Part shown: positions 8,763 through 12,022 of the stretch, one piece after another
How the letters are laid out: every line of letters begins with the position of its first letter
Position numbering within the stretch: the stretch's first letter is position 1
From: Acidimicrobiia bacterium
GTDB lineage: Bacteria > Actinomycetota > Acidimicrobiia > Acidimicrobiales > Aldehydirespiratoraceae
Assembly (NCBI GenBank): GCA_022820805.1
Contig: JAJEEV010000033.1
Span: 59,398-123,397 of the forward strand
DNA: 64,000 nt
Direction of reading: 5' to 3'
Program-made: the position numbers and the translations under genes
The notes under the pieces: model-generated
Told to the model about the DNA's origin: nothing
What the model saw: the letters and a program-made list of their open reading frames with translations, nothing else
Databases searched by the model: none

Positions 8763-8876
8763 GAGTCACCTCAATTTACAGTCATCTTCATACCATACCA
8801 GATGGAGGGGGCGAGGCAACGCAGCACGTCCCAGGCGTGTGGCGGCTGGCCGGCCGGCTGGTGTGAGCGACGGCCG

Positions 8877-9732
8877 TCAGAGGGTGGTGGTGCGGGCTAG
8901 GAACTGTTCGAGGTGGGTGGTGAGGACCTCGGGCTGGTCTATGGGGATGAGGGTGCGGCTGTCGTCGACCCACACCAGCTCGGCGTTGTCGAAGTGCTCG
9001 GCGAGGCGCACGGCGTGCTCGGGCGGCATCAGCTTCTCGTCGCGGGCCCACACGATGAGCACGGGGCCGTCGAAGGCGCCCTGCTGTTCGGCCCATTCGA
9101 GCAGTTGCGCCTTGCCGGGGACGCTGCGGAGGTACTTGTCGAGGTCGCGCCGCACCCTGGGGTTGTGGCGCAGCGGCTCGATCAGGCTCCTGAACTGGTC
9201 GTTGGGCAGGCGCTTCTTGGTGAGCGCCCCGCAGGTGAACGGCAGGTGCCTGATCAGGCGGGGGCGCAGGAGCTGCGCGGTGAGGAAGGTGCCGCCGGGC
9301 AGCGACGCGTTGAGGCACAGCAGCCGGCCGGGGGATACCGGGCGGGTAGTTGTCGAAGGCCTCGCACGACACCAGCACCAGGCTGCCGACGCGGTCCGAG
9401 CCGCCGGGAGCGACCACGAGCTGGGCGCCGCCCCAGCCGTTGCACACCAGCGTCACGTCGCGCAGGTCGAGCTCGACGAGGAAGCCGGCGATCATGCGGG
9501 CGAGCGACTCGAGGCTGAGGTCGGCGTCGTCGGGCATGGGCGTGCGGTGGGCGCCGAAGGGCAGCTCGGGCACGATGCAGCGGTAACGGTCCCGCAGCTC
9601 GGCGACGACGGGGTCCCACAGCGTGCCGTTGGTCAGCACCCCGTGCAGCAACACCACCGCAGGCCCGTCCCCACCAGTGTCGGAGTACATGAGCCCAGCC
9701 GAAGACGGCCCTTTGAGAGCGCGAGTAGCCAC
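8877..9732 (-). pseudogene. Alpha/beta hydrolase, frameshifted
   Basis: N-terminus MATRALKGPSSAGLMYSDTGGDGPAVVLLHGVLTNGTLWDPVV...VLVSCEAFDNYPPGIP then frame change at a 5-G run (9330-9334); C-terminus continues in another frame: ...VLIVWARDEKLMPPEHAVRLAEHFDNAELVWVDDSRTLIPIDQPEVLTTHLEQFLA. Confidence 0.8.
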
Positions 9733-9738
9733 CCTGGG

Positions 9739-10191
9739 CTAGGCGGCCATTCGGATTAGCCGGTCGCCGGTCTTGGTGTCGACGTAGGCGAAGCTCTGAG
9801 GCGGTCGGAAACCCTCGGGCTTCGCTCGCAGGTCTTGAAGGGGAATCTGCCGGCTGAACGCTCGCGGTCGAATCAGCGTCAGAGCGGCGCCCACGTCGAC
9901 GCCCTCGAAGTACTCCTGGAACTCGTTGTAGAGCAACCCAGCGCCAGGGCCGTGCTCTCGCCACAGGGTCGGGAGGTCTAGGGGCTGAACGCTGGTGATG
10001 ATGCACGTGCCGAGGAGCGCTCGCACCGGCGACGCCGCATACAGCAGCGCCCGTGTCGGCACCACGATCTTGGGCTCCGTGCGTCGCAGCTCAACGGTCT
10101 TGACGCCCGCGAGGATGGCCTCCGCGAATCTCGGCTTGAGCGACAGAACGACCATCCGGTCCGGGTCGAGTCCCTGCACCTCAAGCGTCAT
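9739..10191 (-). CDS. ASCH-domain protein
   Basis: VVLSLKPRFAEAILAGVKTVELRRTEPKIVVPTRALLYAASPVRALLGTCII...EFQEYFEG matches ASCH architecture. Confidence 0.8.
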   Translation of the reverse strand: MTLEVQGLDPDRMVVLSLKPRFAEAILAGVKTVELRRTEPKIVVPTRALLYAASPVRALLGTCIITSVQPLDLPTLWREHGPGAGLLYNEFQEYFEGVDVGAALTLIRPRAFSRQIPLQDLRAKPEGFRPPQSFAYVDTKTGDRLIRMAA

Positions 10192-10376
10192 TGCTTCTCA
10201 TCCCCTCCTCGTAGAACCCGTGGACCGCGCCCTCATCGATCGTGTTCATACTGTCGCACAAGCAGCGATTGTGTACCGATGTCGCCGGTTGTCGGACTCA
10301 GCTCTCCGAGTCAGTTATCCACAAGCCCTCACGTGCCAGTTCCGGGGAGCCCATGGGTGTCGGTTAGTGTTCCGCT

Positions 10377-11891
10377 GTGGATCCAGACGGGATCTTGGGA
10401 GAGATACACGTCCCTAGGCCGGGCAGTGCTGACGCATCGGCACTGATCAATCTCGACATCACGTTCCCCGTGGGGTTGAAGGTCGCTGTCGTCGAGCGCG
10501 TTCAGGTTAAGGATCTGGGCGAGGAATGGGCAGACGCCGGCGTGTACCTCTTGCTTGAGCGAACAGGTCGAGATGGGGCATGGGGCGCCTACGTCGGTAA
10601 GAGCGCCGCAGCCGGCGGTGTGAGGGGACGTCTTCGACTCCACCTACGGGATCCCAACAAGTCCAGTTGGTACAGAGCAGTGGCCGTGTGCCCTTTAGAC
10701 GGCGGCTGGGACGAGGCAGAGGTCGCATGGCTGGAAGGTCGGGTCTATCGCACCTTGCAAGAGTTGCCTGGAGTCTCGCTGTCGAACTCCCAGGAGCCAG
10801 GGAGCGGCAGACTTGCCCTGCGTCGGCAGATGCCGCTGCAAGCGGTTTCGACAGCACTGACCGCCGTGCTGGTACTCATCGGGCATCCTGTCTCGACGGG
10901 CGGCGCGCAAGAGGCATCTCAGCCTGAATCGCCCGATCCTCCCGTCAATGAGAAACCGTTGCGGCCCGGCAAGTTGGCGCACCTGCTAGAGGCCGGACTG
11001 CTGACTTCAGGCGCCAAGCTCGTCGCGCTCGACGAGAGATGGCCCGGCAACGCGACGATCACGGCTGAAGGACGAATTGACGTTGCTGGGGAGACCTACA
11101 CTTCGCCGTCGGGAGCGGCCAAGGCCCTTTCCGGACGCATAGCTGAGTCCGGATGGGACTTCTGGGCCGTCGGGTCCGATGACGGACCGACTCTGAACGA
11201 ACTGCGTCGCCGCCACGAGTCGGGCTCGACGAGTCCGCCATCCCCAACGACCAAGCAAGGCAAGACGCTCGCTCGCGGATCGTCCAGGTCTGGCAAACTG
11301 GCGGACCTGCTAGAAGCTGGACTGCTGACTTCAGGAGCCAAGCTCGTACCGCGAGACACCAGGTGGTCCGGAGAAGCGACTGTTACCACAGCGGCGCAAA
11401 TCGAGATTGCCGGAGAGACTTACTCCTCGCCGTCAGGAGCGGCCAAGGCTCTCACCGGGCGCATAGCCGAATCGGGGTGGGACTTCTGGCTTCTTGAGTC
11501 CCAGACTGGCCCAACTCTGAACGAACTCCGCAGCCTGCTCGCATCCGGTTCGACGAGTCCACCAACACCCGGGGACCGTCAAGGCGACGCCTCCGCTGCC
11601 GAGTCGTCCCGGCCTGGCAAGCTGTTGAACCTCCTAGAGGCAGGACTGCTGACTTCAGGGAGCACGCTCGTGGCGCGAGACCCGAGATGGCGCGGAGAAG
11701 GGACAGTTACGGCTGAAGGTTGGATCGATGTGGCGGGAGTCATGTTCTTCTCGCCGTCAGGGGCAGCCAAGGCACTCAGCGGGCGCATAGCCGAAGCCGG
11801 ATGGGATTTCTGGGCAGTCGAATCCGCAGACGGCCCAACCCTGAGCCAACTCCGCGACCGCCTCCAGAGCGGCACTACCCCTGCGCCGTAA
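10377..11891 (+). CDS. GIY-YIG nuclease-like domain with three tandem RAMA/DUF4357-like domains
   Basis: N-terminus DAGVYLLLERTGRDGAWGAYVGKSAAAGGVRGRLRLHLRDPN...AEVAWLEGRVYRTL; then three repeats LLEAGLLTSGxxLVxxDxRWxGxxTVTxxxxIxVAGxxxxSPSGAAKALxGRIAExGWDFW, starting at 10962, 11286, 11610 (exactly 324 nt apart). Confidence 0.8.
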   Translation: MDPDGILGEIHVPRPGSADASALINLDITFPVGLKVAVVERVQVKDLGEEWADAGVYLLLERTGRDGAWGAYVGKSAAAGGVRGRLRLHLRDPNKSSWYRAVAVCPLDGGWDEAEVAWLEGRVYRTLQELPGVSLSNSQEPGSGRLALRRQMPLQAVSTALTAVLVLIGHPVSTGGAQEASQPESPDPPVNEKPLRPGKLAHLLEAGLLTSGAKLVALDERWPGNATITAEGRIDVAGETYTSPSGAAKALSGRIAESGWDFWAVGSDDGPTLNELRRRHESGSTSPPSPTTKQGKTLARGSSRSGKLADLLEAGLLTSGAKLVPRDTRWSGEATVTTAAQIEIAGETYSSPSGAAKALTGRIAESGWDFWLLESQTGPTLNELRSLLASGSTSPPTPGDRQGDASAAESSRPGKLLNLLEAGLLTSGSTLVARDPRWRGEGTVTAEGWIDVAGVMFFSPSGAAKALSGRIAEAGWDFWAVESADGPTLSQLRDRLQSGTTPAP

Positions 11892-12022
11892 CCGCGTTAG
11901 CACGACTTACCATCCGTTAGCCGAACTGGGGCGACAGCTGAGGCTCGAGACAGATCCCTGAGCGTGCTCCGGCGGTCAAAGATCCTCACTGAGCGATGAC
12001 GGCGCAGGACGCTTCCCAGGCG

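Follow-up and report, generated by a model that had tools for sequence, protein, structure and literature searches.

Phage defence candidates of the PDC-S14 type, which PADLOC lists as a single-gene system under the models PDLC04921, PDLC04925 and PDLC04923, usually consist of a GIY-YIG nuclease domain followed by one RAMA domain. Such GIY-YIG-RAMA fusions have already been noted as type IV candidates (PMC11037411), and PDC-S14 has been reported to overlap GAO_29, whose mechanism appears to resemble restriction (PMC10855318); a survey of open-access papers found no biochemical or phage data on any PDC-S14 member. A candidate parallel is offered by Ahi29725I and Apa233I, 6mA-dependent type IV enzymes of the wH-GIY-YIG group that likewise join a nuclease to a methyl-reader domain, although the domain shown to sense 6mA in these enzymes is a winged helix rather than a RAMA domain (PMC11037411). 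What the RAMA domain reads, if anything, is disputed. The RAMA domain of the methyltransferase CcrM touches only DNA phosphates, through S315, H317, N330, W332 and R350, and mutation cripples the enzyme (PMC6787082), while that of MPND, a eukaryotic histone- and DNA-binding protein, bound double-stranded DNA without a preference for 6mA in one study (PMC9963953). Both solved RAMA structures thus show backbone contacts and no base reading (PMC6787082, PMC9963953), and the literature on RAMA and modified DNA is conflicting, with the 6mA preference of MPND itself in dispute (PMC9963953).

Here we describe a gene whose product resembles these proteins in having a GIY-YIG domain followed by RAMA, and differs from them in carrying three RAMA domains. 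It lies in a 64,000-nucleotide stretch of Acidimicrobiia DNA, the whole of which we call the window, and is a rare RAMA copy-number variant of the catalogued PDC-S14 family, not a new kind of system. PADLOC assigns the protein to PDC-S14 on a near full-length match (PDLC04921, 4.9e-111, best stretch at profile positions 27-273 of 280); because the profile covers the nuclease and the first RAMA copy, the presence of three copies marks a variant and does not exclude the protein from the family. The defence affiliation suggested by a first-pass annotation of this DNA therefore stands as family membership, and on sequence grounds the product is probably a DNA-cutting enzyme of phage defence.

Domain organisation of the gene product

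A single open frame encodes the protein, and its parts are as follows.

10377-11891, + strand: whole gene, GIY-YIG nuclease plus three RAMA domains; 504 aa, GTG start, PDC-S14 family
10479-10877, + strand: GIY-YIG nuclease domain, aa 35-167; catalytic set Y57, Y72, R85, H89, E120 and N137 present
10887-10961, + strand: disordered linker from nuclease to RAMA 1; AlphaFold2 pLDDT below 50 for aa 175-196
10962-11213, + strand: RAMA 1, aa 196-279; from Tandem Repeats Finder, PF18755, copy alignment and AlphaFold2
11214-11285, + strand: Ser/Pro-rich linker 1 (SGSTSPPSPTTKQG...); from copy alignment and AlphaFold2
11286-11537, + strand: RAMA 2, aa 304-387; same four sources as RAMA 1
11538-11609, + strand: Ser/Pro-rich linker 2 (SGSTSPPTPGDRQG...); 64% DNA identity to linker 1
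11610-11861, + strand: RAMA 3, aa 412-495; same four sources as RAMA 1
11862-11888, + strand: C-terminal tail (SGTTPAP); by sequence comparison, a further linker copy begins here
9739-16206, no strand assigned, context only: low-GC3 island (from GC3) with an ASCH protein, this gene, a Zn-ribbon/HNH protein, a Phd antitoxin, an MTase-HNH gene, a PIN protein and an HTH-M78 protein

The N-terminal part is, by profile comparison, motif and topology, a GIY-YIG domain that retains its catalytic residues. Both the GIY and YIG motifs and the catalytic Arg, Glu and Asn are found (G55/Y57, Y72/G74, R85, E120 and N137); G55, Y57, Y72, G74, R85, H89 and E120 show no variation among 26 family members, of which 25 also have N137, and the order of strands and helices in the structural model is that expected of the fold. 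In hhalign comparison the match to GIY-YIG/DUF4357 proteins has a probability of 99.4% and that to UvrC one of 70%, with reversed controls at 0.5-1.5% (1.5% for the GIY-YIG/DUF4357 comparison), and together with the motif residues this bears out the earlier description of the N-terminus as GIY-YIG-like. Matches to the Pfam model PF01541 are weak and occur in 16 of 32 family members. A Foldseek search of the PDB with the nuclease-domain model gave no significant GIY-YIG match, weak viral GIY-YIG matches were seen, and neither the GIY-YIG profile nor the whole single protein sequence matched any PDB sequence. The GIY-YIG/DUF4357 proteins (L020, L021, L022, L024 and L027) share a homologous nuclease domain with the window protein but end in a DUF4357-type C-terminus instead of a full-length RAMA. 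One of them, the 403-aa ORF of L027, has two tandem C-terminal units of DUF4357 type, a parallel duplication in a sister family.

The C-terminal part is repetitive. Tandem Repeats Finder reports a period of 324 nt with 2.8 copies, 74% matches and a score of 909 at 10962-11862, and alignment places the starts of three 84-aa units at aa 196, 304 and 412, an exact spacing of 108 aa with 24-aa Ser/Pro-containing linkers in between; the layout first read from the sequence, three domains of about 84 aa at a 324-nt period, is therefore correct. The label 'perfect-period' that accompanied it holds for the spacing and fails for sequence identity, the copies having diverged to 73-74% identity in DNA and 65-75% in protein between pairs. 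Linker 1 was duplicated along with its RAMA domain. With about 27% of bases differing between copies, chance or an assembly duplication can be ruled out as the source of the repeats. The third codon position is the least alike between copies (0.52-0.62), and dN is 0.17-0.25 against a dS of 0.68-1.01; because third-position changes dominate and dN lies well below dS, the sequences indicate that purifying selection has maintained every copy from the duplication onwards.

As to the identity of the repeats, PF18755 (RAMA) matches the whole protein at 1.1e-47 in three stretches, and the copies taken one by one score 58.7, 58.2 and 55.7 bits against a curated cut-off of 35.2. The DUF4357 model, PF14267, scores 41.4 bits on the whole protein against a cut-off of 38.4, with a best stretch limited to positions 25-54 of the 54 in the profile. 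Because the DUF4357 model is matched in part only, the repeats are better called RAMA, and of the original term 'RAMA/DUF4357-like' the first half is retained. An AlphaFold2 model built from 26 sequences (mean pLDDT 82.7) contains three compact, well-ordered and mutually alike RAMA folds joined by linkers with pLDDT below 50, so that the comparison with PF18755 and AlphaFold proposed at the outset favours RAMA on both counts. The best solved Foldseek matches are CcrM (PDB 6pbd, C-terminal RAMA; E 6.9e-4) and the MPND-DNA complex (PDB 7ydt and 7ydw; probability 1.00, target TM 0.70-0.72). Sequence and model thus point to a beads-on-a-string protein, in which a GIY-YIG domain with intact catalytic residues is followed by three RAMA domains on flexible linkers.

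RAMA copy number across the family

A first scan of the genome collection with the single sequence as query returned no relatives; an alignment query recovered 30, nearly all from Actinomycetota, to which a class-level search added one more (G749), and RAMA domains were then counted in each with a local profile. Among the 31 relatives counted, 23 have one RAMA domain, two have two (L050 and G749) and six have none, and the window protein is the only one in the counted family with three. Likewise, RAMA was found in 22 of 399 genomes of the phylum, with more than one match within an open frame in the window's genome only. The six RAMA-less homologues, all from Nonomuraea (L058-L061, L063 and L064), retain the GIY-YIG domain; in L063 the frame continues from upstream transposase-like sequence. 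The family is patchily distributed across genomes. Searches for close relatives in phages and viral contigs found nothing useful, nor did a plasmid search, which gave one RAMA/DUF4357-only match. Nearly identical GIY-YIG-RAMA genes occur in genomes labelled Chloroflexi (L044) and Acidimicrobiaceae (L048), through recent transfer or mis-binning.

The nearest relative, G749 (L113:8699-10048, same order), is 46% identical to the window protein and shares its arrangement of GIY-YIG and tandem RAMA, but it has two RAMA domains, of which the second belongs to the ordinary NGW type. In a phylogenetic tree its first RAMA falls into a single clade with all three of the window copies (100/99 support), and from this grouping the window protein is concluded to carry three copies of one RAMA type. 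A common origin with the two copies of L050, from Modestobacter, was rejected, the L050 copies falling outside the window clade. Tandem RAMA domains are also seen apart from the nuclease: a 518-aa ORF in L005 and L114 (the latter on contig C208 of G047, a genome of the same family) has two RAMA domains without GIY-YIG, and the repeated segment after each of them resembles an integrase core-binding (SAM-like) domain.

Methyltransferase neighbours and the local island

Flanks of up to 10 kb on each side of the relatives were fetched, and an amino-methyltransferase of PF01555 or PF02384 was found at 12 of 23 loci against 0.47 expected from the methyltransferase density of the same genomes, a comparison in which gene calls were mechanical, some loci (L054-L057) are related, and general defence-island clustering is not separated from linkage to restriction-modification (R-M) genes. 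An association with DNA methyltransferases, as first proposed, is accordingly supported at the family level. Among winged-helix type IV enzymes, 87% lack a methyltransferase within a distance of three genes (PMC11037411). A hand count over the same distance finds one at about 10 of 24 GIY-YIG-RAMA loci, for which the binomial P against 13% is about 5e-4. Some of these loci are operon-like: L042 (2472-10801) encodes a methyltransferase, an HsdS-like protein, a large ORF, a YgjP-like protein and GIY-RAMA, and L054 (5609-10768) and L055 (5366-10768) encode a PF01555 methyltransferase, a Res-like helicase and GIY-RAMA. At L039 (639-4867) and L051 (9926-13466) the GIY-RAMA gene adjoins a type IIG gene, and PADLOC identifies further type IIG enzymes in L040 and L041. 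Single-RAMA GIY-YIG genes thus occur as extras in or beside type I, type III and type IIG loci with unrelated methyltransferases (also at L036:6091-10813), and single-RAMA proteins are possibly a general R-M accessory nuclease. Adenine methyltransferases of varied specificity are frequent among these neighbours, which fits poorly with cleavage wherever 6mA occurs; simple cutting at any N6-methyladenine is disfavoured by how often single-RAMA relatives are found in R-M loci of types I, IIG and III.

These associations give weight to the main alternative, possible though somewhat doubtful, namely that RAMA is a non-specific module for binding double-stranded DNA and the protein an accessory or clean-up nuclease for restriction or repair enzymes, in which three copies would raise affinity or processivity and no modification would be read. 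An add-on indifferent to specificity would be expected to turn up beside unrelated methyltransferases, as the relatives in type I, IIG and III loci do; the RAMA domains of CcrM and MPND contact the backbone and make no base contacts, and six Nonomuraea homologues have no RAMA at all. The nearest relatives of the window protein, however, stand alone, and a triggerless non-specific nuclease would endanger its host unless regulated.

In the window itself, the genes of the island have a GC3 of 0.64-0.83 against 0.89-0.97 in their neighbours, and the region from 9.7 to 16.2 kb is probably an acquired island. The ASCH-domain protein (9739-10191, - strand) matches PADLOC PDC-M11B and is divergently oriented to the GIY-YIG-RAMA gene with 185 bases between them; it is a possible candidate for a second modified-base reader in the island. 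On the other side of the gene, 12023-12736 (- strand) encodes a topoisomerase-type zinc ribbon with an HNH nuclease domain. Counterparts of the ASCH, Zn-HNH, PIN and M78 genes were sought in the flanks of the relatives, and none were found. Additionally, an alpha/beta hydrolase (8788-9732 and 8877-9155, - strand) has its N- and C-terminal halves in different frames, through a frameshift, a pseudogene or a sequencing error.

The MTase-HNH gene of the island (13156-14310) had been proposed to form a dedicated modification-dependent defence or regulatory pair with the GIY-YIG-RAMA gene. A distance of 1.3 kb separates the two genes, which share the low-GC3 island, and methyltransferases are enriched near GIY-YIG-RAMA genes at the family level; but they are encoded on opposite strands, the Zn-ribbon/HNH gene and the antitoxin gene lie between them, and a full GIY-YIG-RAMA gene is present in none of the four genomes with the closest orthologues of the MTase-HNH gene (G047, G049, G631 and G695; 52-68% identity), so that the co-occurrence predicted for a pair fails. 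The nearest GIY-YIG-RAMA relative, G749, has no methyltransferase among nine scanned ORFs of its neighbourhood. We consider a dedicated pair very improbable. Nor is there any sign that the MTase-HNH gene is 'switchable', as it had been called: three close orthologues have uninterrupted frames of nearly equal length, 410-415 aa from stop to stop against 409 in the window.

A role outside defence should also be weighed. The GIY-YIG nucleases include the repair enzymes UvrC and Slx1, and the patchy distribution of the family would suit either a nuclease of DNA repair or recombination, or a gene of the island that at present has no defence role. Purifying selection on each RAMA copy and the intact catalytic residues argue against this reading, and the island-borne distribution and the R-M neighbours of the relatives point instead to defence; we regard it as improbable.

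DNA-contact residues and a proposed mode of action

When the window copies are placed on CcrM by family-profile alignment, Ser (245/353/461), Trp (260/368/476) and Arg (277/385/493), the counterparts of the phosphate-contacting S315, W332 and R350, are retained in all three. The H317 position is not conserved and the residue is absent from the window copies, and at the position of N330, which is Asn in 24 of 26 family members, they have S258, S366 and A474; CcrM, a methyltransferase with one RAMA domain, keeps both residues. The first RAMA of G749 also has Ser at the N330 position, and because of this the sequences place the loss of Asn before or together with the amplification of the domain. 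The number of contacts may compensate for single RAMA contacts that are thereby weakened. Each copy has 8-10 Lys plus Arg against 10-11 Asp plus Glu, and hence no net positive charge.

The reading that we tentatively favour, at a little under an even chance, is that the protein is a stand-alone, tethered, avidity-based PDC-S14 restriction nuclease, possibly type IV-like, whose RAMA array prefers dense or unusual modification. Each RAMA domain would bind the DNA backbone weakly through the Ser, Trp and Arg residues held in common with CcrM; three linked weak contacts would then generate avidity and concentrate the nuclease on DNA, where the flexibly tethered GIY-YIG domain would nick or cut nearby. 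In the least certain step of this scheme, the array would prefer DNA whose bases are densely or unusually modified, for example that of modified phages, and the sparse methylation of host DNA would leave the nuclease untriggered. If several contacts had to be made at once, a densely modified invader could be distinguished from a host whose methylated sites are scattered; without the conserved phosphate-contacting Asn, each of the three copies would bind less firmly, so that cleavage would rely on multivalency. Consistent with a stand-alone restriction nuclease, no methyltransferase was found near the genes of the tandem-RAMA relatives G749 and L050, and the window gene lies in a low-GC3 island of defence-like genes. 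Against this reading count the solved RAMA domains without base reading, the lack of a 6mA preference in MPND, the adenine methyltransferase neighbours, which would be unexpected if any 6mA triggered cleavage through RAMA, the window copies without net positive charge, and the search of the PDB that gave no significant GIY-YIG fold match.

A stricter form of this proposal, which we judge unlikely, is density-gated restriction, in which three tethered RAMA copies, weakened by loss of the phosphate-contacting Asn, would require clustered modified sites, so that heavily modified phage DNA would be cut and sparsely methylated host DNA tolerated.

For the family as a whole, the single-RAMA relatives in type I, IIG and III R-M loci constrain a simple model of 6mA cleavage. 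The three-copy RAMA array, set beside its one- and two-copy relatives, provides a natural series for the role of valency in the recognition of DNA by RAMA domains.
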